This document shows, in pieces, positions 4,674 to 16,358 of a DNA stretch of 21,264 bases; the first letter of the stretch is position 1; each line of letters opens with the position of its first letter. The notes beneath the pieces were generated by a model, which was not told where the DNA came from, did not search any database, and was given only the letters and a program-made list of their open reading frames with translations. Source of the DNA: a virus; the IMG/VR virus record IMGVR_UViG_3300048836_000170, positions 1 to 21,264 of that record. One strand, given 5' to 3'. Position numbers and translations under genes: made by a program.

Positions 4674-4984
4674 CAGAATGGCACTCCGTCATACTCCCAG
4701 CGGTCGCACCCGCTGGCCTGAAATTCCGCTGGCGGCTTCGCTTCCCAGATCGCGCACCACCCGGAGCCGTCCAGATACACGCACGACTGGCAACGCGGAG
4801 CCATCTGGTCGTATCGGGCGAGCTGGGCCGCGAGCGCGTCGCGCGTCGCCTGCCACTGTGGGCGGGTGATCGTGGGGCCGGCGCCGGCCTTCATCATCGT
4901 GGCGATCGACGGCCCGGCCCGCTCGCCATCTGGCCCGCCGTACACATCGCCCAAGTCCGACTTCATGTCGGCGAACTCGTTCAT
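4673..4984 (-). CDS. Small protein with four-Cys putative zinc finger
   Basis: This 103-residue protein begins MNEFADMKSDLGDVYGGPDG. The C-terminal third holds the pattern C-x2-C-x7-W-C-x14-G-C (residues CQSC...GWCAIW...SGCDRWEYDGVPF), a likely metal site. A closely similar pattern occurs at the C-terminal end of the nuclease immediately upstream (CRTC...GWRCER...AGCPDH), which suggests a shared module. The middle (ITRPQWQATRDALAAQL) is helical. The start at 4984 overlaps the nuclease stop as ATGA (4981-4984). Function unknown; a partner of the nuclease is an inference from adjacency and the shared module. Confidence 0.62.
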   Translation of the reverse strand: MNEFADMKSDLGDVYGGPDGERAGPSIATMMKAGAGPTITRPQWQATRDALAAQLARYDQMAPRCQSCVYLDGSGWCAIWEAKPPAEFQASGCDRWEYDGVPF

Positions 4985-6042
4985 CTGGCGGCCCCACTCA
5001 TGGTGACCACATGACCCTCGAACTCGGCCCGCAGCGCGTCGGTGGCAGGGTCGCCCAGCGCCCGCTTGTCGTCGGCCGCGTGAATCTCCGTCGACAGGTA
5101 GCCAGGCGCCGGGCCGTTCGTGAACTCGCGATCGGTCAGCGCGTTCCGGTACCGAACCGAGTCGCCATCTGAGTCGACGAGCTCGGCAAATCGACCCAGC
5201 AGGCTCGGGATGTAGCGGTGATCCGGGCAGCCGGCGCGCTGCTCATCGACGGTCAGCGTCCGATCGTGGCGCTCACACCGCCAGCCGCCGGTCGGCAATG
5301 GCGTAACGTGCGCGCACGTCCGGCAGGTCGCTGGCGGCGCCGCAGTCCCGTGGCACAGCTCATACGCCGGGCAGAACTTGCACTCGTGCCAGGCGGGGTC
5401 GGTGCTGATGCCGGGCGGCGGCTCCGGCGCGAAAATGATGCGGCCCGCCCGCTCCATGATCCGGTTGAACTCGGGCCGATCGAACTCGAAGCGCTCCACG
5501 TGGATCTCGTCGGTGTCTTTCACGACGAACACGAACGCCGCGCGCTCGAGCTCCATCATCAGCCCCATGTAGACCTGGCCCTGAGCCCAGTACCGCGGGT
5601 AGGCGGCGCGAAAGCCCTTCTTCGTGAGTTCGGCGAACTTCTTCCCGCTCACCGTCTTCACGTCCACCAGGTGCCAGGTCTTCGGCGCTTCCGGGAGTCC
5701 GCGCACAACTGCGTCGACATGCCCGCGGAAGTGCCCGCCGTGGGCCGAGACGGCGTACTGCGAGCCATCCGGCTGGCGGTCGTGAACCTCGAGACCGAGC
5801 TGGCGCAGCTCGTCGAGCAAGCGCGCTTCCTCCCGATGTCCGGTGTCGAACAGCCGCAGCATCCGGCCGCCGAAGCGCTCACGCATCGCCCACCGAAACC
5901 CGTACCAGAGCCGGCGAGCGCACGGCTCGCCGATCTCCGAGGCTCCGAGATACGGGCGAGCGCTTGAGTCCGCCTCGCGCCGCTCGTACAGGCCGTAGAT
6001 GGCCTGCGCGAGCGTGTGCATGGGCTCGGGCAGCACGGCCAC
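4981..6042 (-). CDS. PD-(D/E)XK exonuclease, Cas4/RecB-like with Fe-S-type cysteines
   Basis: A DNA end-processing nuclease of about 353 residues. Counting from the GTG at 6042, motifs are: GASEIGEPCARRLWYG with Cys41; GHVDAV with Asp110; VDVKT with Asp127 and Lys129 (the D-x-K catalytic pair); QGQVY, Gln154 to Tyr158 (the QxxxY motif of RecB/Cas4 nucleases); and CKFCPAYELC with Cys221, 224 and 230. Cys41 plus these three match the Cas4/AddB arrangement for a 4Fe-4S cluster. A second four-Cys group (240, 243, 256, 272) follows, then a 75-residue tail. The GTG lies 2 nt past the DUF669 stop; an ATG at 6021 is the alternative. With the Sak4-like ATPase and DUF669 protein upstream it would form a phage recombination module, the nuclease producing single strands for annealing. 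Confidence 0.85.
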   Translation of the reverse strand: MAVLPEPMHTLAQAIYGLYERREADSSARPYLGASEIGEPCARRLWYGFRWAMRERFGGRMLRLFDTGHREEARLLDELRQLGLEVHDRQPDGSQYAVSAHGGHFRGHVDAVVRGLPEAPKTWHLVDVKTVSGKKFAELTKKGFRAAYPRYWAQGQVYMGLMMELERAAFVFVVKDTDEIHVERFEFDRPEFNRIMERAGRIIFAPEPPPGISTDPAWHECKFCPAYELCHGTAAPPATCRTCAHVTPLPTGGWRCERHDRTLTVDEQRAGCPDHRYIPSLLGRFAELVDSDGDSVRYRNALTDREFTNGPAPGYLSTEIHAADDKRALGDPATDALRAEFEGHVVTMSGAAR

Positions 6043-6044
6043 GA

Positions 6045-6524
6045 TCAGGCCGCCTTCGCCTTCGCCCAGGGGGGCGTCGCCGACGCGGGCTTCTGCGCGG
6101 CGGGCTTGGCCTGCGCCGCGCCCGCGCCGACCGGCGAGAACCCGGTCACGTCGTTCGAGTCGCCATACGTGTCGCCCGGCTTGGCCTTGCGGACCTTGAC
6201 CGTCACCAGCGTCGGCTTTTCGTGCAGCTCGAGCGTGTCCGTGAGCTTCGGCAGACCGATCGCGTGGCACAGCGCCGAGAGCTGCGCCAGGCCGATCTGC
6301 TGGGCCTGTGCGTTCTCGTTGCGGATGTTCAGCCGCGCCCACAGCTTGCGGTTGGCGTGCTCGCCCTCGAGGATCTCGAACGTGAGCTTGAGAATGTCGC
6401 CGGTGCCAGCCTTCGTCGGCACGATCTCGGAATCGATCACGTGCGCGACGTACTTGCCGGCGGGCAGCAGGTCGAACTCCTGCTGGGGGGCGACGGTGGA
6501 ACTGTCGAATGAGAACTCGGCCAT
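6045..6524 (-). CDS. DUF669 protein, putative single-strand DNA-binding partner of the ATPase
   Basis: This 159-residue protein begins MAEFSFDSSTVAPQQEFDLL. Features of DUF669 (PF05037) are LPAGKYVAHVIDSEIVPTK, a beta segment LKLTFEILEGEHANRKLWAR, LNIRNENAQAQQIGLAQLSA and VTVKVRKAKPGDTYGDSNDV. The C-terminal 25 residues are Ala/Pro/Lys-rich and end PPWAKAKAA, lacking the acidic tip of bacterial SSB. The family accompanies Sak4-type ATPases in phage genomes and is usually viewed as an SSB-like partner; binding is inferred here. The start at 6524 is 1 nt beyond the ATPase stop, with GGAG in the leader. Confidence 0.8.
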   Translation of the reverse strand: MAEFSFDSSTVAPQQEFDLLPAGKYVAHVIDSEIVPTKAGTGDILKLTFEILEGEHANRKLWARLNIRNENAQAQQIGLAQLSALCHAIGLPKLTDTLELHEKPTLVTVKVRKAKPGDTYGDSNDVTGFSPVGAGAAQAKPAAQKPASATPPWAKAKAA

Positions 6525-6525
6525 T

Positions 6526-7305
6526 TCAGGCTCCTTCGGTTTCGGCGGCCGGCTCGGCCGCTGGTTGAGAAACTTTCGCGCCGATCGCCTCGGCGAACGC
6601 TGCCCAGGACAAAGGGAGCGAGTCGGGCAGCGCATAGCGGTTCTTCGCGAGGTACGCGGGGCGCTCGACCGTGTACAACAGGCGCTCGCCGGTGGTGACG
6701 CCGCGCGAGACCTTCTGGTTGAAGCCCACGTCGTCCTTCTTCACCATCGTCTTGAAGTTGGCGAACAGCACGCAGTCGCACCACTCCTGGACGAGTGCGG
6801 AGGAGCGCTCCTGCAGCTTCGGCATGTAGCGGTCGAACGGCTCGACTTCGGGGCTGTCGAAGCGCTTGATCTGCGCGTGGGCCAGCAGGATCACGGCCAT
6901 GCCTCGGTCGTTCCGGAGCGCGTTCAGCCCATCGAGAATGGTCCGCCACCGCTCTGCAGCGATCACGGCGCCCTTGCCATACGCGAGATCCTTCGCCTCG
7001 TGCTTCTCGTTGATGTCGTGCCAAATGAGCGCGTCGAGCCAGTCGAGAGAGTCGACGACGACCGTCTGGAACTCGTGCTCTTCGCTGTAGAGCACGCCGA
7101 TCGCCTCGATCACCTCGCCCTCTGTCTTGGCCAGCGGGAAGTGCGGCACCTGCAGCGTGCCCAGGCCGTCCTCGGTGAGGATGAAGATCGGGCTCGGGGC
7201 GCTTGCGCCGAACGTCGTCTTGCCCAGCCCGTGAGGGGCGTAGAGCATGACGCGGGGGGCGCGCACGGCGGCGGATCGGCTGATGGAATTCAGGTTGATA
7301 GCCAT
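6526..7305 (-). CDS. Sak4-like RecA-fold ATPase (AAA_24), single-strand annealing protein
   Basis: This 259-residue protein has a Walker A motif at residues 23-31 (APHGLGKTT, Lys29) and a Walker B strand at 81-86 (TVVVDS). A further strand AVILLAHAQIKRF (about residues 136-149) corresponds to the motif after the core ATPase strands. This order and length fit the AAA_24/Sak4 family (PF13479), RecA-fold proteins that anneal single strands for phage recombination, often with a single-strand binding protein. The next two genes downstream are exactly such a DUF669 protein and a PD-(D/E)XK nuclease. The ATG at 7305 has AAGGAGA about 12 nt upstream. The tail is Ala/Glu-rich and probably disordered. 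Confidence 0.85.
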   Translation of the reverse strand: MAINLNSISRSAAVRAPRVMLYAPHGLGKTTFGASAPSPIFILTEDGLGTLQVPHFPLAKTEGEVIEAIGVLYSEEHEFQTVVVDSLDWLDALIWHDINEKHEAKDLAYGKGAVIAAERWRTILDGLNALRNDRGMAVILLAHAQIKRFDSPEVEPFDRYMPKLQERSSALVQEWCDCVLFANFKTMVKKDDVGFNQKVSRGVTTGERLLYTVERPAYLAKNRYALPDSLPLSWAAFAEAIGAKVSQPAAEPAAETEGA

Positions 7306-8727: not shown

Positions 8728-9075
8728 ATGTCGCTCGAACGCAAAGACGTGCGGGCGAAACGCCGTGGGCGGCAAATGATCGCCTACGCACCGAAGCCAG
8801 GATCGGTCGCCGACTACGTGCTGCGGCGCCTGCGTGAGCCGGCGGCGCCCGAGCGGATCTCGCAACTGTCGATTCAGCGAGCGCTGGGCAAACCGCAGGC
8901 CGCGTGCATCTGGCAGTCGTGCGAGCGTGCCGTCGACTACGGCCTGCTCGAGCGGGTGAACATCGAAGGCCGCACCTACTACTCGCTGCCGGAGCGCGAG
9001 CGGATCGAGGCCGGCGCGCGCGTCATGGCGTGGGTGGCGCGGCAGGCGGTGACCGAGATCCGGATTGCAGCGTGA
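8728..9075 (+). CDS. Small phage protein, possible winged helix
   Basis: This 115-residue basic protein begins MSLERKDVRAKRRGRQMIAY. A segment from about residue 25 to 90 (PGSVADYVLRRLREP...ISQLSIQRALG...ERAVDYGLLERVNIEGRTYY) has the helix-helix-helix-hairpin rhythm of a winged-helix domain. It starts 3 nt after cro and its stop overlaps the next start as GTGA (9072-9075), so it is in the PR operon. A DNA-binding role in replication or regulation is inferred from pattern only. Confidence 0.6.
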   Translation: MSLERKDVRAKRRGRQMIAYAPKPGSVADYVLRRLREPAAPERISQLSIQRALGKPQAACIWQSCERAVDYGLLERVNIEGRTYYSLPERERIEAGARVMAWVARQAVTEIRIAA

Positions 9076-9608
9076 TCAAGGCCATCGAGACCGTGTATCG
9101 CGGCTACAGGTTTCGCAGCCGGCTCGAGGCACGGTGGGCGGTGTTTTTCGATGCGCTTGGGATCAAGTGGGAGTACGAACCAGAGGGATATCACCTTTCT
9201 GATGGGTCGATGTACCTGCCTGACTTCTGGTTGCCTGGCTTCCACCTTCCGGGCGGCACGTTCGTCGAGGTTAAGCCACAAGGCGGCGACGTATCGAAGG
9301 CGCGTCAATTCGCACTTGACTCTGGCGCGGCGGTGCTGCTCGCAGTCGGAGCCCCGAGCGTGTCTTTGCTCGATTGCCTGTTCACTGACATCGGCGACGA
9401 TGGCGAACAGTGTCTTTCGACCTATAAAGTCGCATTCGACAGTAAGTACCTGCCATGTAACAAATCGCGCGGAGAGAGCAGGTTCTTCGTGTGTCCAGGC
9501 GACGATCACTGCGATGGCGATGAGTTTCTATTGGATGCAGTCATCGCAGCTCGCCAGGCCAGATTCGAACACGGGCAAGTCGGAGCGCCTTCGGCATGGA
9601 CGCGTTGA
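9072..9608 (+). CDS. PD-(D/E)XK-like phage endonuclease (putative)
   Basis: This 178-residue protein starts at the GTG at 9072 (GTGA overlap) and begins VIKAIETVYRGYRFRSRLEA. The sequence FRSRLEARWAVFFDALGIKW, then EYEPEG, then YLPDFWLPG, then FVEVKP is characteristic of a phage family with a restriction-endonuclease-like core: Asp in PDFWLP and the Glu/Lys pair in EVKP fit the D...ExK catalytic set. The C-terminal half carries several Cys (CLFTDIGDDGEQC, CPGDDHCDGD), possibly a metal site. It lies just before the replication gene. Nuclease activity is inferred, not shown. Confidence 0.6.
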   Translation: MIKAIETVYRGYRFRSRLEARWAVFFDALGIKWEYEPEGYHLSDGSMYLPDFWLPGFHLPGGTFVEVKPQGGDVSKARQFALDSGAAVLLAVGAPSVSLLDCLFTDIGDDGEQCLSTYKVAFDSKYLPCNKSRGESRFFVCPGDDHCDGDEFLLDAVIAARQARFEHGQVGAPSAWTR

Positions 9609-11743
9609 TGGCCAACGTCGTACCGATCGGCCAGTCACGCCCCATGATCGAGTACGCGCTGGCCTATGCGGCGCTCGGCTGGCCAGTGTTCCCGGTGCAA
9701 TGGGTAGAACAATCCGTCGACAACGAGTCCGGCGAAGTCCAGAACCGCTGCTCGTGCAAGTCGCCGACATGCGATCGCGCCGGGAAACACCCGCTCACGC
9801 GCGGCGGGTTTCGCGACGCATCGTCCGACGCCGAACAGGTGCGCCAGTGGTGGTCGCAATGGCCGATGGCAAACATCGGTGTGACCACGGGCCCCACCTG
9901 CTGGGTGCTCGACATCGACTTCCGGCACGGCAAGGACGGGCACCTGACAGTCGAAGCGCTCGAGCGCAAACACGGCCTGCTGCCGCAAACACTCTCGGCG
10001 CGTAGCCAGGGCGGTGGACGCCACCTGTTCTTCCGGCCAGCGCCCGGCGTCGGCTGCTCGACCGAACGGGTCGGCCGCGGCGTGGACGTACGAGGCCGCG
10101 GCGGCTACATCATCGTCGAACCCAGCCGCATCACCGGAACCTATGCGTTCGAAGACTGGGACGTTCTGTCCGGGGAGCCACCCGAGCTGTGCGACGCGCC
10201 AGCGTGGCTGCTCGAGCTCGTGGCCAACAAGCCGGACAACGCCGCCGCTCCCGCTGTCCCGTTTCGCCACGTCGAGCCGGATACGCTCGACGACCTGCGC
10301 TCGGCGCTCTCATGGCTGGACTGCTCGAACTACCAGGCGTGGATCGACGTCGGCCTTGCGCTCAAGCCCCTCGGCGACAACGGCTTCTGGTTGTGGGACG
10401 AATGGAGCCGGACCTATCCCGGGTACAACTTTCAGCAGATCCGCCAGAAGTGGCACAGCTTCAAGACCAACCGGATCGGCCACGAGTCGATCTTCTCCAG
10501 GGCACAAGCCCGCGGATGGCAAAACCCCAGGGCCCGTGCCGCCGACCCCACCCCGGACGAACCCGCCACCCGACCGATCGCGGCCTCGGCCTTCACGCTC
10601 AGAGACCCCTCGACGATCGAGCCGCGCGACTGGCTCTACAAACGCATCTGGATCCGGCGCTACGTCACCGGCACCTTTGCGCCCGGCGCCGCCGCCAAGA
10701 CACAGGTCAACCTGTATGACCTGGTGACGGTCGCCTGCGGGTTCGACCTGTCCACGCGGGAGCCGCTCAAACGCGGCCCGCTGCGCGTCTGGTACATCAA
10801 CGTCGAGGACGATCGCGAAGAAATCGATCGCCGCCTGGCGGCAATCTGTCTGCACTACGGCGTCACCGACGCCGACCTCGGCGGACGGCTGCACGTCGAC
10901 ACCGACCGAGAAGGGCGCTATCTGGTCGCCGAGACCCTCAAGGTCGGCGTCATCGTACGCAAGGCCGTGGTCGAAGCGATCCTGGAACAGATCCACGAGC
11001 TCGGGATCGACCTGGTGCTCATCGACCCGCTCGTCGGGCTGCACGCGGTCAGCGAGAACAGCAACCCGGAGATGAACCGGGTCATCGCCCAGCTTCGGCG
11101 CGTGGCCGAAGAGGGCGCCTGCGGCGTTCACGTCATCCACCACGTCCGCAAGGGCACCGACGGCGACGAGGTGAGCGCCGAGGACGGCCGCGGCGCCTCG
11201 GCCATCAAGGACGCCTGTCGGGCTATCAGAACGCTCACGCCCATGTCGGAGAAGGAAGCGGCCGAGTTCGGCGTGGCGCTCGAGCGACGGCGCTTCTACG
11301 TGTGGGCCAACCATAGCGGCAAGCCGAACCTCGCGCCGCCAATCTCGGTGCGCGACTGGTACTTCCTCGAGGACGTCGGACTCGGCAACGCCCGTCCCGA
11401 CCGCGACGAAGACAGGATCGGCGTACCTACACCCTGGCGCCCGCCGTCCGTGTTCGAAGGCGTCTCGCTCGACGACTGCCGGCGCATCTGGACCGCCATC
11501 GACGGCATCCGCGACCCGCTGGCCTGCGCCCGCGAGAGCTCCCAGTCGCTCGCCTGGCTCGGCGTGCTGATCTGCAACCTGATGGACTGGATCCCGACCG
11601 AGGAGTCCGCCAAAGCCCAAGCCAAGCGAATGATCGGCGAATGGGAACGGTCCGGCGTGCTCGAAAAAGTGAAGTTCCGCGACGCAGCAAAAGGCCGCGA
11701 CGTGCCCTGCTATCGGCTCGGAAGCGCCGCGAAGATGAACTGA
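9596..11743 (+). CDS. Replication protein: primase-polymerase plus RepA-like ATPase
   Basis: A 715-residue bifunctional replication protein. Residues about 15-205 are a Prim-Pol domain (PF09250): a Cys/His group CSCKSPTC...GKHP (52-66), the metal-binding WVLDIDFRHG (DID at 106-108), SARSQGGGRHLFF (His143) and GRGGYIIVEPS. Residues about 230-310 match a primase C-terminal domain (PriCT-2: SNYQAWIDVGLALK...FWLWDEWSRT...KWHSF). Residues 350-560 form an AAA_25/RepA-like ATPase: Walker A-like FAPGAAAKT (361-369), Walker B LVLIDP (473-478, Asp477), then HVIHHVRKG. The Walker A lacks the usual Gly before Lys. The start at 9596 overlaps the previous gene; an ATG at 9608 (TGATG) is an equal alternative. 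It probably initiates phage replication. Confidence 0.88.
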   Translation: MDALMANVVPIGQSRPMIEYALAYAALGWPVFPVQWVEQSVDNESGEVQNRCSCKSPTCDRAGKHPLTRGGFRDASSDAEQVRQWWSQWPMANIGVTTGPTCWVLDIDFRHGKDGHLTVEALERKHGLLPQTLSARSQGGGRHLFFRPAPGVGCSTERVGRGVDVRGRGGYIIVEPSRITGTYAFEDWDVLSGEPPELCDAPAWLLELVANKPDNAAAPAVPFRHVEPDTLDDLRSALSWLDCSNYQAWIDVGLALKPLGDNGFWLWDEWSRTYPGYNFQQIRQKWHSFKTNRIGHESIFSRAQARGWQNPRARAADPTPDEPATRPIAASAFTLRDPSTIEPRDWLYKRIWIRRYVTGTFAPGAAAKTQVNLYDLVTVACGFDLSTREPLKRGPLRVWYINVEDDREEIDRRLAAICLHYGVTDADLGGRLHVDTDREGRYLVAETLKVGVIVRKAVVEAILEQIHELGIDLVLIDPLVGLHAVSENSNPEMNRVIAQLRRVAEEGACGVHVIHHVRKGTDGDEVSAEDGRGASAIKDACRAIRTLTPMSEKEAAEFGVALERRRFYVWANHSGKPNLAPPISVRDWYFLEDVGLGNARPDRDEDRIGVPTPWRPPSVFEGVSLDDCRRIWTAIDGIRDPLACARESSQSLAWLGVLICNLMDWIPTEESAKAQAKRMIGEWERSGVLEKVKFRDAAKGRDVPCYRLGSAAKMN

Positions 11744-11935
11744 GGCCCCCACTATGCCCCACTGTTCCACCACTTCTACCCCCACTTCCCACCAAGGCCG
11801 TTTTCACCCCTCAACCCCCCACCCCCACCACCTCCTAGGGGGTGTGGGGGTGGTGGGGGGGTGGCGGTGGGGTGGCGGAAAGCGGTCTCCAAGGCCCCCT
11901 CACCCCACCACGTTTTCCCCCACCTGGGTGATGGC
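11744..11935. other. Intergenic C/G-tract region with hairpin and G-quadruplex motif
   Basis: No credible gene lies in these 192 nt. The left part repeats CCCCACT three times (near 11746, 11756 and 11779) among C tracts. A near-perfect inverted repeat spans 11819-11853 (CCACCCCCACCACCTCC against GGGGGTGTGGGGGTGG) with almost no loop. From 11838 the plus strand reads G5, TGT, G5, TGGT, G7, TGGCGGT, G4, a canonical four-tract G-quadruplex motif. It follows the replication gene directly, so an origin, a replication-pausing site or a transcription-attenuating structure are all possible; the sequence does not decide between them. Confidence 0.6.
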
Positions 11936-12274
11936 ATGAGAGTCATCCTCCCCTGGCCTCCCGCCGCCCTCAGCCCGAACGCGCGAGCCCACTGGGCGAC
12001 GAAGAGTCGGGCGGCCAAGGCTTACCGGCATGCCTGCGCGACGCTGGCCCGCGCGGCCCGGCTGACGGTGCCGGTGGCTGCCGGCCGGTTGCACGTCGTG
12101 CTCGAGTTCGTTCCACCAGACCGGCGGGCGCGCGATCGCGACAACATGCTGGCGGCGATGAAAAGCGGCCTCGACGGCCTGGCCGACGCGCTGGGCGTCG
12201 ACGATCGCCGGTTCGACCTGACCATCCGTGTCGCAGACGAGATCGGCGGCATGGTCCGGGTGTCGATCGCATGA
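11936..12274 (+). CDS. rusA: RusA-like Holliday junction resolvase
   Basis: This 112-residue protein begins MRVILPWPPAALSPNARAHW. RusA features are PWPPAALSPN near the N-terminus, the acidic catalytic stretch DRRARDRDNM (about residues 62-71), then GLDGLADALGVDDRRF. RusA cleaves four-way DNA junctions as a dimer using three conserved Asp residues; the Asp positions in RDRDN and the later DAL/DD block correspond. Length matches the family (about 120). It lies downstream of the replication gene, where it would resolve branched replication and recombination intermediates before packaging. Its stop overlaps the next start as ATGA (12271-12274). Confidence 0.85.
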   Translation: MRVILPWPPAALSPNARAHWATKSRAAKAYRHACATLARAARLTVPVAAGRLHVVLEFVPPDRRARDRDNMLAAMKSGLDGLADALGVDDRRFDLTIRVADEIGGMVRVSIA

Positions 12275-12480
12275 GCGCACTGGGCACCGACAGCCTGCGC
12301 GCCATCGCCAACGATCTGGACGAAGCCGGCGAAGACCTGACCGGGTTCGCGATGGTCACGGTCACGCACGACGGCTCCGACAACGTGATCCGCGCGCTCG
12401 GGTCGATCACCGACCGCGACGCGCTCGTGGTACTGCTCAGGGCTGGCGTGAAGATGCTGGCGGGAGGGACGGAACAGTGA
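12271..12480 (+). CDS. Small acidic phage protein, unknown
   Basis: This 69-residue protein begins MSALGTDSLRAIANDLDEAG and continues with a beta-like FAMVTVTHDGSDNVIRALGS and a helix DRDALVVLLRAGVKML. It is acidic and compact. Both ends are coupled: ATGA with rusA and GTGA with the next gene. Small proteins of this type often sit between resolvase and late-regulator genes in phages; no function is known. Confidence 0.58.
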   Translation: MSALGTDSLRAIANDLDEAGEDLTGFAMVTVTHDGSDNVIRALGSITDRDALVVLLRAGVKMLAGGTEQ

Positions 12481-12860
12481 TCGCCGACTGGATCGACGAC
12501 GAATTGCAGAACTGGGCGCGTTGGTGCAACAGCGGTCCCTGGCCGCACCCGGTGCCTCCGGACCACGCGGCATCAGCGGAAGGCCGCTACCTGTCGCCGA
12601 GTGACATCGACGCCGAGCCGGAACCGCGTCCGGTACGGCCGAACGCCGAGCGCGCCGAGATCGTCCACCGGGTCTACCGGGAGCGCCTGACGGATCGAGA
12701 GCGCCGTGTACTCGTGGTCAGGTACATCCACAGGACGCCTGCCGATCAGGTGCCGCGCAGGACTCGGCTATCGGAGGCGCTGGTCGCCGAGGCAACGATG
12801 GCCGCTGCACGACTGATCGGCGAGGAGTTCAGGGAGGAAAGGCTTGCGCTACGCGCGTGA
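12477..12860 (+). CDS. Putative late-gene regulator (antiterminator Q / sigma-region-4-like)
   Basis: This 127-residue protein starts at the GTG at 12477 (GTGA overlap) and begins VIADWIDDELQNWARWCNSG. The N-terminal part carries WARWCNSGPWPHPVPP. The C-terminal half, RAEIVHRVYRERLTDRERRV, then LVVRYIHRTPADQVPRRTRL and SEALVAEATMAAARLIGEEF, has the two-helix arrangement of sigma region 4 or ArpU/RinA-like regulators. Position supports the idea: last part of the early rightward operon, before a terminator and the packaging genes, where Q-type regulators lie. The assignment rests on pattern and location only. Confidence 0.45.
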   Translation: MIADWIDDELQNWARWCNSGPWPHPVPPDHAASAEGRYLSPSDIDAEPEPRPVRPNAERAEIVHRVYRERLTDRERRVLVVRYIHRTPADQVPRRTRLSEALVAEATMAAARLIGEEFREERLALRA

Positions 12861-13071
12861 GGTGATCGACCTGCTCGGCGCCTACCCCGGCAGGGACTTC
12901 AAGCCGGGACACATCGTCCGGTACGTGGCCGCGAAACGCGCAGAACTGGTGCGCCCACGCCTGCGCGTCGGTGTGCATCGCGTGCTCGTCGCATTGGTCG
13001 AATCCGGCCAGGTCGAGCGTGACCCACCTGGGCGGTACGGCAGCTATGCCGTCTATCGCTGGAAACCGTAA
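12844..13071 (+). CDS. Small winged-helix-like protein
   Basis: This 75-residue protein starts at a TTG (12844) supported by a strong AGGGAGG about 6 nt upstream, overlapping the previous gene by 17 nt. It begins MRYAREVIDLLGAYPGRDFK. The order LLGAYPGRDFKPGHIVRYVA, then RVGVHRVLVALVESGQVERD, then GSYAVYRW is that of a winged helix with a C-terminal beta wing. I recognise it as a recurrent phage family next to late-control genes. It may act in transcription control; direct evidence is absent. Confidence 0.62.
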   Translation: MRYAREVIDLLGAYPGRDFKPGHIVRYVAAKRAELVRPRLRVGVHRVLVALVESGQVERDPPGRYGSYAVYRWKP

Positions 13072-13108
13072 CATCAAGTCGTGGCAAACCGTAACAGAAA
13101 CCGTCACA
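13063..13108 (+). repeat. Three direct repeats AAACCGTMACA
   Basis: AAACCGTAACA occurs at 13063-13073 and 13086-13096, and AAACCGTCACA at 13098-13108. Starts are 23 and 12 bp apart, roughly two turns and one turn of the helix. The first copy includes the stop codon of the upstream gene. They lie just ahead of the terminator at 13166-13200 and could be a regulator-binding array. Confidence 0.55.
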
Positions 13109-13205
13109 CTAGCGCCGGGTCAGTGTCTCTACTGATCCAGTCTCCTCCTTCGGTAGTACCTTGCGGCCCGGCCGGTCACTCGACTCGCCGGGCTTTCTTT
13201 CGCCC
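13072..13205. other. Intergenic region before the packaging genes
   Basis: No gene is seen in this 134-nt gap. It holds two of the three AAACCGTMACA repeats, an imperfect hairpin around TCAGT-GTCTCT-ACTGA (about 13119-13137), and the terminator at 13166-13200. A promoter for the late genes could lie here, but I see no convincing -35/-10 pair. Confidence 0.5.
13166..13200 (+). terminator. Intrinsic terminator after the early rightward operon
   Basis: GCCCGGC (13166-13172) pairs perfectly with GCCGGGC (13187-13193) across a 14-nt loop, followed by TTTCTTT. The HNH gene begins only 6 nt later, so late transcription must start beyond it or read through it, as expected with a Q-type antiterminator. 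Confidence 0.65.
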
Positions 13206-13556
13206 ATGAAGCTCACCACGCTCAAGCCGCGGATCACCACGATCAGGACCGAGCGCGTGCGCTCAACCGTTGACTCGACAAGCTGGCGCGCCGGCAAGAC
13301 CAGCACCGAGCGAGGCTACGGGTACAGGTGGCAGCAGGCGAGGGCGGCGCACCTTGCCGAGCACCCGTTATGCGTGATGTGCCAGTCCGAAGGTCACGTG
13401 ACCGCCGCTGACGTGGTTGATCACGAGACGCCGCACAGGGGTGATGCACAGTTGTTTTGGGATCGCTCGCAATGGCAAAGCCTATGCAAGCGCCACCACG
13501 ACTCGGCCAAGCAAGCAGAGGAGAGGAGAGCCGGGTCGAGTCACGCTAAAACGTAA
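13206..13556 (+). CDS. Phage HNH endonuclease next to terminase
   Basis: This 116-residue protein begins MKLTTLKPRITTIRTERVRS. The core RGYGYRWQQARAAHLAEHPL leads into CVMC, then VVDHETPHRGD, then LFWDRSQWQSLCKRHHD: first Cys pair, the DH metal/catalytic motif, and the Asn/His-type third motif with Cys and HH. This is the HNH family located by terminase genes in HK97-like phages (as HK97 gp74), needed with terminase for DNA cutting during packaging. The ATG at 13206 has no clear Shine-Dalgarno site because the terminator hairpin sits directly before it. Confidence 0.85.
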   Translation: MKLTTLKPRITTIRTERVRSTVDSTSWRAGKTSTERGYGYRWQQARAAHLAEHPLCVMCQSEGHVTAADVVDHETPHRGDAQLFWDRSQWQSLCKRHHDSAKQAEERRAGSSHAKT

Positions 13557-13604
13557 AGCGGGCCGCGCGTGGCGCTAGCAGCACCACGGCGACCCTAACC
13601 ACCA

Positions 13605-13621
13605 CGAACTTCTGAGGTTCG
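13605..13621 (+). promoter_or_regulatory. Small hairpin holding the Shine-Dalgarno of the homing endonuclease
   Basis: CGAAC (13605-13609) pairs with GTTCG (13617-13621) around the loop TTCTGAG. The only Shine-Dalgarno candidate for the ATG at 13624, GAGG (13614-13617), lies in the loop and the edge of the stem. Pairing could limit translation. The stem is only 5 bp, so the effect may be weak. Confidence 0.35.
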
Positions 13622-13623
13622 CA

Positions 13624-14226
13624 ATGGCTAGAAAGCATCGTACATCATGTTCTGTTGCTGGTTGTGAGAAGCCTGCCAGCCGCGTCGGCGCCGGTCTTTG
13701 CGAGATGCACTACATGCGCGTTCGTAGGCACGGCGACACCGACAAGGTGAACCGAGTAAAGTCTGGGCTACTTGAGCACACTGGCGGATACCTATTGGCC
13801 TACGCGCCAGATCATCCGCTCAGTCGCAATCGCGGCCGCGTGTATGAACACCGTGCGGTCTTCTACGCTGAGAAAGGTGAGGGACCGTTTCGCTGCCATT
13901 GGTGTGCAAGAGTTGTGACGTGGGACGACATGCACGTCGACCATTTGAACGACGATGTTAAGGACAACCGACCTGGCAATCTCGTTGCGAGCTGCCCTCG
14001 TTGCAACCAGCGGCGCGGCCTATGGAAGATGGCTAAAGTCCACCGCGAGTCGTCCGGTCGACGGTATAGCGCGCACGGTAAGACGATGTGTTTGTCCGAG
14101 TGGTCCAGAGAGACGGGCGTGACACGCGCCGCGCTGGAGTTCAGGTTGAGAGCGGGTTGGCCGAGCGAGAAGGTCTTTGGGCCGCGCGTCGGTCGATCAG
14201 GTCCGCCAAGCAAGCCACGGCGATGA
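13624..14226 (+). CDS. Free-standing HNH homing-type endonuclease
   Basis: This 200-residue protein begins MARKHRTSCSVAGCEKPASR. It has an N-terminal zinc finger (SCSVAGCEKP...GLCEMHYMR). A central HNH domain follows: HRAVFYAEKGEGPFRCHWC, then MHVDHLNDDVKDNRPGNLVA, then CPRCNQRRG, with the metal-binding VDH, the conserved Asn and two Cys pairs. A C-terminal helix-turn-helix-like segment follows (CLSEWSRETGVTRAALEFRL). This order matches phage homing endonucleases that nick intergenic DNA and spread their own gene. Its codon use appears less GC-rich than its neighbours (many T/A third positions near the start), which supports insertion between the HNH and terminase genes. Confidence 0.82.
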   Translation: MARKHRTSCSVAGCEKPASRVGAGLCEMHYMRVRRHGDTDKVNRVKSGLLEHTGGYLLAYAPDHPLSRNRGRVYEHRAVFYAEKGEGPFRCHWCARVVTWDDMHVDHLNDDVKDNRPGNLVASCPRCNQRRGLWKMAKVHRESSGRRYSAHGKTMCLSEWSRETGVTRAALEFRLRAGWPSEKVFGPRVGRSGPPSKPRR

Positions 14227-14356
14227 CTGGTAGGGGGTAGCCCCATCCGATCTCTGGAACCCTAGGCACCCTAGACCGCGCTCCCCCTCATTCGGACCGA
14301 ATACCTCCTGGTTGATTTTCGGCGAGGCGATTTCGGGCTATTCAACGGAGATTCAA
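14227..14356. other. Intergenic region before terminase small subunit; candidate cos/pac region
   Basis: No gene is seen in this 130-nt gap. It contains CCCTAG twice within 16 nt (around 14261-14274), a C tract and the perfect inverted repeat ATTCGG-A-CCGAAT (14290-14302), then an AT-richer leader with GGAG before the ATG at 14357. In HK97-like phages the packaging start site lies close to the small terminase gene, so this is the natural place to look; I cannot identify the cut site itself. Confidence 0.4.
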
Positions 14357-14695
14357 ATGGCACGCGGAGGGGCTCGGCCAGGTGCCGGCAGGCCGAAAGG
14401 CGTCAAAGCGCGTACGGAGAGGCCGGAGAAGCCGGTGCTTTCGGTGCCTGCGGACATTGTGGCCGCTGGCCAAGCGATGAAGATGTCGCCGCTCGAGTAC
14501 ATGCTGTCCGTGATGAACGACAGGACCGCCGAGGCTACGCGCCGGGATCGGATGGCGCAGGCGGCGGCGCCGTTCGTGCACGCCAGGGCTGGCGAGGCGA
14601 CCAAGAAGGTCGACGCCGCGGACAAGGCGAAGCGCGTCGCTGCTGGCCGATTCGCCCCGAGCGCTGCGCCGCAGTTGGTTGTGAACAACCGCTGA
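14357..14695 (+). CDS. terS: Terminase small subunit (putative)
   Basis: This 112-residue protein begins MARGGARPGAGRPKGVKART. The start motif GGARPGAGRPKG is typical of phage small terminase or packaging-associated proteins just upstream of the large subunit. A helical middle (IVAAGQAMKMSPLEYMLSVM, then EATRRDRMAQAAAPFVHARA) and a basic tail follow. Small terminase binds the packaging site and recruits the large subunit. The ATG at 14357 has GGAG about 8 nt upstream; the next gene starts 1 nt after the stop. The protein is short for the family and no full HTH is clear, so the call leans on position and the N-terminal motif. Confidence 0.72.
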   Translation: MARGGARPGAGRPKGVKARTERPEKPVLSVPADIVAAGQAMKMSPLEYMLSVMNDRTAEATRRDRMAQAAAPFVHARAGEATKKVDAADKAKRVAAGRFAPSAAPQLVVNNR

Positions 14696-14696
14696 C

Positions 14697-16358
14697 ATGG
14701 ATTGGACGACCGCCTGCCCGGACTGGGAGGAACGGGTAGTCGGCCGGCGTTCGCTGATCCCGTTCGAGCCGCTGTTCCCGGGGGAGGCCGCGGCGGCGCT
14801 GGCCGTGATGGACCAGTTGCGGATTGTCGACATGCCCGGCGGGCCGACATTCGGCGAGATCAGCCGGCCGTGGGTGCGGGAGTTTGTCGGCAGCGTGTTC
14901 GGGGCGTATGACCCGGAGCAGGGCCGGCGCCTGGTGCGCGAGTGGATGCTGTCGATCTCGAAGAAGAACACGAAATCGACGACTGCCGGTCTGCTGATGC
15001 TGACGTTCCTCATTCGGAACTGGCGCCGGGCTGGCGAGTTCGGAATTCTTGCGCCGACGGTCGAGGTTGCGAACAACGCATTCAAGCCGGCCGCCGACGC
15101 GGTGAAGGCGGACGAAGAACTGAGCGCGCTGTTCCACGTTCAGGATCACATCCGGACGATCACGCACCGACAGACGCGGGCGACGCTGCAAGTGGTTGCG
15201 GCGGACTCTGAGACGGTCGCTGGCAAGAAGTGGATCGTGACGCTGATCGACGAGCTGTGGCTGTTTGGCAAGCGGCCGAATGCCGAGGACATGCTCAGGG
15301 AGGCGACGGGTGGGATGGCGTCGCGGCCGGAGGGGTGCGTGATCTGGTTGAGCACGCAATCAAACGATCCGCCTGCCGGTGTGTTCCGCCAGAAGCTGCA
15401 ATACGCTCGCGGGGTTCGTGCCGGCCGGATCGTCGACAAGCAGTTCTGTCCGGTGATCTACGAATTCCCGGAGTCGATGATCAAGTCGGGCGCGCACCGC
15501 GACCCGGCGAACTTCTACATCACGAATCCGAATCTCGGCGCGTCGGTCGACGTCGAGTACCTGAATCGCGAGTTCGCCAAGGCGCAAGAGTCCGGCGAGG
15601 AGTCGATGCGCGGCTTTCTTGCCAAGCACCTGAACGTCGAGATCGGCCTCGCGCTGATGTCCGACCGGTGGTCCGGCGCGGATTTCTGGGAGCGCCAGGG
15701 CACGGCCGGTCTCACGCTCGACGAGGTGATCCGGCGATCCGAGGTCGTGACGGTCGGGATCGACGGCGGCGGCTTGGATGACCTGCTGGGCCTGGCTGTG
15801 CTGGGCCGGGATGCGCGCACGCATGACTGGCTGCACTGGGGTCACGCTTGGGCGCACCCGTCGGTGCTCGAGCGGCGCAAGAGCGATGCAGGACGGTTCA
15901 CTGACTTTGAGCGTGACGGCGACATGACGCTTGTGCGTCAGATCGGCCAGGACGTTCAGGCGGTGGCCGAGATCATCTCGACGGTCTACGGGGCCGGGAA
16001 GCTGGACAAGATCGGCGTCGATCCGCACGGCCTGGGCGGGATTTTGGATGCCCTAGTCGATGCGGGGATTCCGCAGGAGCTTGTGGTCGGGATCTCGCAG
16101 GGCTGGAAGCTGACCGGGGCGATCAAGACGACCGAGCGCAAGCTGGCCGAGGGCACGTTGCACCACGGCGACCGGCCGTTGATGAGCTGGTCGGTGGGCA
16201 ATGCGCGGGTCGAACCAAGAGGGAATGCGGTGATGATCACGAAACAGGCGGCAGGGTTCGCGAAGATCGATCCGCTGATGGCGCTGTTCAGCGCGGTGTC
16301 GCTGATGAGTTTGAATCCTCAGGCGAACACCCACGACGGCGAGATCACCTTCGTATGA
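14697..16358 (+). CDS. terL: Terminase large subunit
   Basis: This 553-residue protein is the DNA-packaging motor and nuclease (Terminase_1 type, PF03354). The ATPase part has a Walker A-like SKKNTKST (about residues 88-95; the usual KNGKS has Thr for Gly) and Walker B VTLIDE (181-186, Glu186). The motif after it is VIWLSTQSNDP. The C-terminal RNase H-like nuclease shows VGIDGGGLDD (Asp356 and Asp361/362) and KIGVDPHGLGG. Length and order match HK97-group terminases. The ATG is one nt after the terS stop, and the stop overlaps the next start as ATGA (16355-16358). It acts at the portal vertex. Confidence 0.93.
   Translation: MDWTTACPDWEERVVGRRSLIPFEPLFPGEAAAALAVMDQLRIVDMPGGPTFGEISRPWVREFVGSVFGAYDPEQGRRLVREWMLSISKKNTKSTTAGLLMLTFLIRNWRRAGEFGILAPTVEVANNAFKPAADAVKADEELSALFHVQDHIRTITHRQTRATLQVVAADSETVAGKKWIVTLIDELWLFGKRPNAEDMLREATGGMASRPEGCVIWLSTQSNDPPAGVFRQKLQYARGVRAGRIVDKQFCPVIYEFPESMIKSGAHRDPANFYITNPNLGASVDVEYLNREFAKAQESGEESMRGFLAKHLNVEIGLALMSDRWSGADFWERQGTAGLTLDEVIRRSEVVTVGIDGGGLDDLLGLAVLGRDARTHDWLHWGHAWAHPSVLERRKSDAGRFTDFERDGDMTLVRQIGQDVQAVAEIISTVYGAGKLDKIGVDPHGLGGILDALVDAGIPQELVVGISQGWKLTGAIKTTERKLAEGTLHHGDRPLMSWSVGNARVEPRGNAVMITKQAAGFAKIDPLMALFSAVSLMSLNPQANTHDGEITFV

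Follow-up and report, generated by a model that had tools for sequence, protein, structure and literature searches.

The 192-bp non-coding gap behind the primase gene of this phage is most likely an iteron origin of replication, with its initiator encoded directly upstream. The proposed origin (positions 11744-11935 of the window, by which we mean the whole stretch of DNA analysed, a virus record of 21,264 bases) fills the space between the primase stop at 11743 and the rusA ATG at 11936, and stands out by its tracts, its repeat array and its conservation in a second phage (L003). A gap of this length is unusual among the neighbouring replication genes because these overlap or abut (the ORF at 8904-9608 with the ATG at 9596; 12271 with 12274), and for these genes the remark of an earlier note, made from the sequence alone, that the other gaps of the phage are very short holds true.

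Runs of at least four C or G occur 13 times in the gap as opposed to at most 4 times in any other 192-bp window, and runs of at least five occur 9 times versus at most 2. Among 5000 mononucleotide shuffles of the gap, the mean number was 3.89 for runs of at least four (maximum 13) and 1.48 for runs of at least five (maximum 6), while CCCCAC and GTGGGG, which together occur 10 times in the gap, reached a mean of 0.34 and a maximum of 3. The C/G tracts that had drawn attention to the gap are thus far beyond chance by comparison with both other windows and shuffles. GTG and CAC are found 7 and 14 times, respectively, versus about 3.1 and about 2.8 per 192 bp across the remaining window. The GC content of the gap is 68%, hence it has no AT-rich melting region of the kind that lies beside the iterons of classical iteron plasmids. 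Rfam and tRNA scans were empty, an initial genome scan returned no find, and the search for DNA relatives gave none among plasmids and three marginal short matches among phages.

The C/G tracts form a single array in which 16 copies of (R)RGTGG[GT]GG are grouped in blocks with a spacing of about 11 bp. Counted on both strands, the core GTGG[GTC]G has 60 occurrences in the entire window, 16 of them in the gap; the shuffle mean for the gap is 0.77 (maximum 5), and any other 192 bp has at most 5. The left block (11747-11785, minus strand) has four GTGG[GT]G cores at 11747, 11757, 11768 and 11780, all in the same orientation and separated by steps of 10, 11 and 12 bp. A 37-bp step leads from it to a central inverted cluster (11817-11877), in which three minus-strand cores (11817-11831) face six plus-strand cores (11844-11877) and of which the hairpin and the G-quadruplex motif described below are both parts. 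The right block (11903-11923, minus strand) has three cores at 11903, 11906 and 11918.

The upstream gene (9596-11743, plus strand) encodes a protein of 715 amino acids, which we propose as the initiator on the basis of Pfam, a match to RSF1010 RepA and a model of its C-terminus. Pfam assigns a PrimPol domain to residues 21-204, a PriCT_2 domain to residues 235-302 and an AAA_25/RepA-like helicase to residues 335-521, and the helicase part matches RSF1010 RepA both by sequence (E 6.9e-13) and by fold (whole model pLDDT 60). With a pLDDT of 74, the last 101 residues are predicted to form three helices plus a wing of two strands. The best structural neighbours of this model include many winged-helix domains, at middling Z scores of up to 7.9, and we refer to the predicted domain, at about residues 625-708, as winged-helix-like. 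The downstream neighbour, outside the element, encodes a RusA-like Holliday junction resolvase (11936-12274, plus strand; PHROGs phrog_34, E 1.7e-25). The ORF at 8904-9608, upstream of the primase gene, weakly matches Holliday junction resolvase families (phrog_9019, E 7.4e-11), so that resolvase-like genes may flank the primase gene on both sides. Elsewhere in the window, a recombination module on the minus strand (4981-7305) encodes a Cas4-domain exonuclease (phrog_1990) and a Sak4-like annealing protein (phrog_124).

The element is conserved in the second phage (L003/L004), the primase protein of which is 76% identical to that of the window; another record, L002, is the window phage itself (100%). 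The 15 cores of the L003 array match the 16 of the window in order, orientation and spacing, with left-block steps of 11, 11 and 12 bp and an identical 37-bp step. Between the two phages, 156 of 187 aligned bases of the gap are identical, compared with 179 of 295 fourfold-degenerate sites in the primase gene. The gap is more conserved than the fourfold sites of its flanking gene, which suggests selection on the array. Absence or random variation of the tracts in relatives, named in advance as the outcome that would speak against a function, was not observed in the only close relative, and more distant relatives keep the layout with a changed repeat sequence. The gene downstream of the gap differs between the two phages, as do the large-terminase families (a Terminase_6N match in L003 versus TerL_nuclease in the window). 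Since the primase gene and the array are shared and the genes straight after them differ, the array marks a module boundary (L003 6364-9580; window 11936-16358).

Repeat arrays follow genes of this class in many lineages. From IMG/VR and a phage set, 32 loci with diverged PrimPol genes were collected, 29 of them usable, among these the window and L003 (three had less than 250 bp downstream), and in 9 of the 29 no stretch of the locus is richer in repeats than the 250 bp after the stop codon. An independent set from bacterial genomes comprised 80 loci, 73 of them usable (seven had less than 250 bp downstream). In this set, 28 of 48 PrimPol genes of at least 500 amino acids have a stretch in the top 1% of repeat richness directly downstream, although many of these loci are from related sphingomonads and thus are not 48 independent events; the other 20 fused PrimPol genes have no top-1% array directly downstream. 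None of the 48 upstream controls and none of the 25 stretches downstream of short PrimPol genes reached the top 1%. The 40 array loci fall into 20 repeat-sequence groups (L163 left out); the repeats differ by lineage, and the helicase type varies among loci as well (AAA_25, D5_N, DUF3987). An origin downstream of the primase-helicase gene, which the earlier note had considered plausible, is therefore well supported by comparison, i.e., by L003, by this rule of array position and by the annotated origin of phage Sfi21. A simple rule would follow, that a lineage-specific repeat array just after a PrimPol-helicase gene is probably an origin, and with it origins would be placed in a single step for many uncultured phages and prophages.

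Among ten named phages, the array is clear in Sfi21 and 16-3 and borderline in SBlackberry (0.010), and the remaining seven have no array directly downstream. The Sfi21 record annotates a 302-bp origin directly after orf382 (helicase), with the PrimPol gene orf271 upstream, and this origin is the most repeat-rich stretch of its locus. Rhizobium phage 16-3 (L163 6170-6560) has 14 copies of CGTGACA in both orientations after its PrimPol-AAA_25 gene p101; its record annotates no origin at these repeats. In Dickeya phage Sucellus, a strong array (L169 about 8851-9100, score 194) that may be the origin occupies a gap without annotation, about 1.3 kb downstream of the PrimPol gene. Among close genome relatives, L012, L171, L172 and L202 have a common array sequence one gene further downstream, the array of L180 lies about 1.85 kb further downstream, and no array was found in L173 and L041.

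A distance to the gene that is not fixed, as in L012 and L180, could be expected of an array that serves mainly for control, at which the replication protein represses, counts copies or pairs origins while replication starts elsewhere; iterons in iteron plasmids often have a control role too. Nevertheless, we consider this unlikely, as the annotated origin of Sfi21 occupies the matching place and no sigma-70-like promoter was found in 11600-12100. An origin at the array itself is the reading we prefer. Cumulative GC skew, put forward earlier as a check, turned out to be uninformative across relatives: in a 2-kb comparison the skew rises across the element in 9 of 17 loci and falls in 8, and the local skew minimum of the window at 11835 is partly a product of the tracts of the element.

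Short pieces of the repeat do not by themselves point to such loci. An 18-base G-rich core was found in seven IMG/VR stretches. Those in L005, L006 and L011 belong to the same two phages, and its reuse in L007-L010 is due to chance or unexplained, no PrimPol gene or like array being present in the parts read. In L010 (4975-5135; also L008), an unrelated phage with a GC content of 48%, a terminase gene is preceded by several G tracts, among them GGGGGGTGTGGGGGTGGTGGG, and no primase was noticed in that stretch. The heptamer TGTCCCC is the repeat of L016, where the gene order with rusA is as in the window. Triplet arrays of it were found by pattern in at least 120 stretches. Among the matches listed, seven stretches have a PrimPol ORF by profile (L160 was added by Pfam), and in five of these seven the array lies 11-224 bp downstream of the PrimPol-matching ORF. 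Most arrays among the matches listed are in other contexts, e.g., next to VapE, HipA or integrase genes, hence the heptamer was rejected as a diagnostic sign.

The facing iterons of the central cluster can form an imperfect hairpin (11812-11863) with the apex CCTAGG. Its arms (11812-11831 and 11844-11863) are 85% complementary with 12 nt between them, and a perfect arm reaches 7 bp at best, around a loop of 11 nt. The inverted repeat reported earlier therefore exists, but it is imperfect and its description as nearly loop-free was wrong. Folded as single-stranded DNA, the hairpin has a z score of -1.88 in the window (6 of 200 shuffles as good) and -2.42 in L003, only modestly better than shuffles. 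Arms of at least 8 are found in 18 of 41 array windows versus 114 of 1238 other windows, and owing to inverted repeat copies hairpins are more general among arrays than the G-quadruplex motif. As a universal part the hairpin was rejected, since arms of at least 8 are missing from the window and L003. The apex pattern CCT[AT]0-4AGG, which was picked once four of its five occurrences had been seen, is present in 5 of 43 array windows versus 0 of 1099 others; it lies at 11830-11840 in the window and in the arrays of L013, L016, L163 and L174. In the same apex region, L012 and the window have CCTCCTAGGG in common.

A GC-rich inverted repeat after a stop codon could also terminate or attenuate transcription between the primase gene and rusA, and short T runs follow comparable hairpins in 16-3 and L115. 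However, no terminator-like site combining a GC stem with a T run was found in 11600-12100, the L003 hairpin is not followed by a T run, and conservation extends beyond the hairpin to the left and right repeat blocks. Furthermore, in the case of pRN1 the terminator stem-loop was dispensable and a larger stem-loop was required, according to the accessible part of the source (PMC4234260). Thus the transcriptional block before rusA that had been offered as the alternative finds no support, and we regard termination as very unlikely.

The four-tract G-quadruplex motif noted earlier is present (11838-11872, plus strand). It is the sole plus-strand match in the window, with looser matches on the minus strand at 10546-10571 and 11950-11976, and it is kept in L003 within 30 identical bases. 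Such conservation in L003 is what a G-quadruplex or fork-control element, in which the structure itself is the function, would lead one to expect, but the conservation also reaches blocks outside the motif. Across homologous arrays the motif is not generally kept: it is found within the arrays of the window, L003, L016, L115 and L160 (5 of 13 arrays checked), and a match is absent from those of L013, L014, L018, L020, L033, L037, L161 and L068. A function for the structure itself is consequently hardly to be expected. As most related arrays are without the motif, it looks like a by-product of the repeat of this lineage, which contains a run of G. The potential for both hairpin and G-quadruplex is a consequence of the repeat sequence and of the inverted order of its copies and is not general to such origins; it may help in strand opening or priming. 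As functional parts, which the earlier note had suspected them to be, the two are less well supported, given the 5 of 13 arrays and the modest stability of the hairpin. A packaging or recombination site, at which the position of the element on the boundary where the modules of the window phage and L003 diverge and the adjoining resolvase gene might hint, is barely credible, as the terminase genes of the window (14312 and 14697) are at least 2.4 kb away and arrays follow PrimPol-helicase genes across many different lineages.

With the array taken as an iteron origin, the domain that reads the repeats was sought by comparing pairs of loci with true domain limits (L163 left out). Repeats are shared by 49 of 50 pairs with similar PrimPol domains and similar C-termini and by none of 99 pairs with similar PrimPol domains and dissimilar C-termini; seven pairs share repeats despite dissimilar C-termini. 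In the converse comparison, of pairs in which the C-termini are similar and the PrimPol domains are not, none of six share repeats, all six involving L215. The outcome for repeat recognition by the C-terminus is mixed: the first comparison speaks for it, and the converse test of specificity fails and lends it no support. An apparent reciprocal domain swap through L230 was gone with true domain limits, the PrimPol domain of L230 starting at residue 116. For a related primase, the accessible part of one report speculates that a C-terminal winged helix recognises the origin (PMC5862659).

We propose that the winged-helix-like C-terminus of the upstream-encoded protein would attach it to the GTGG[GT]GG repeats, and that the protein would stack along repeats spaced about one helical turn apart. 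Its RepA-like hexameric helicase would then be loaded by the protein itself at the inverted cluster in the centre, where the strands would be unwound, and the PrimPol domain would synthesise the initial primers on the strands thus exposed, from which replication might start bidirectionally. A more ambitious version, which we consider doubtful, gives the repeats three functions, as initiator site, as a strand-specific fold, be it hairpin or G-quadruplex, that holds the melted origin open, and as a GTG-bearing template for PrimPol priming. If true, this would make a self-contained replicon of one protein and one element, in which an AT-rich melting region is unneeded.

Several known systems place an origin in the same position. 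The element of Streptococcus thermophilus phage Sfi21, described as an independent origin in the accessible part of PMC6356513, likewise is a non-coding origin directly downstream of a helicase gene, with PrimPol upstream and short repeats in both orientations, but it is AT-rich with GTAAC-type repeats, and its PrimPol and helicase are separate genes. SaPI origins consist of iterons directly downstream of the helicase gene and are recognised by its C-terminal domain, such C-terminal binding having been shown for SCCmec Cch2, according to the accessible part of PMC7581432. In SaPI and SCCmec the iterons thus follow the initiator helicase gene directly, as in the window; in contrast, their repeats are others, with G tracts none noted in that part of the source, and the SCCmec helicase and primase are separate proteins. 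Like these systems and Sfi21, the window has a non-coding region directly after a putative initiator-helicase gene and multiple repeats, which are conserved in L003. In the literature searched, with most subscription papers outside its scope, only the SCCmec work brought PrimPol and iterons together, and no phage origin pairing a primase-polymerase with iterons was found.

The protein ORF904 of pRN1 resembles the window protein in the fusion of PrimPol, helicase and C-terminal winged helix, and for pRN1 a stem-loop that directly follows the PrimPol gene is essential, as far as the accessible part of PMC4234260 goes. The position after a PrimPol-helicase gene is therefore common to both, whereas pRN1 has an SF3 helicase and, in place of iterons, a 100-nt stem-loop, and the window has an imperfect hairpin of about 50 nt. 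In the same part of that source, its authors suggested that related phages have stem-loops rather than iterons, and the pRN1 primase starts at the motif GTG, although mutation of this motif did not stop replication (PMC4234260). The helicase domain of the window is nearest to RepA of RSF1010, the origin of which, oriV, has iterons and short hairpins (accessible part of PMC4234260), but RSF1010 has separate RepA, RepB' primase and RepC initiator where the window phage has one fused 715-aa protein. The element is most likely a variation on these known origins, with PrimPol, a RepA-type helicase and a winged-helix-like domain combined in one protein and G-rich repeats without an AT-rich region, and it suggests how a fused RepA-type primase-helicase could start replication without a separate initiator.
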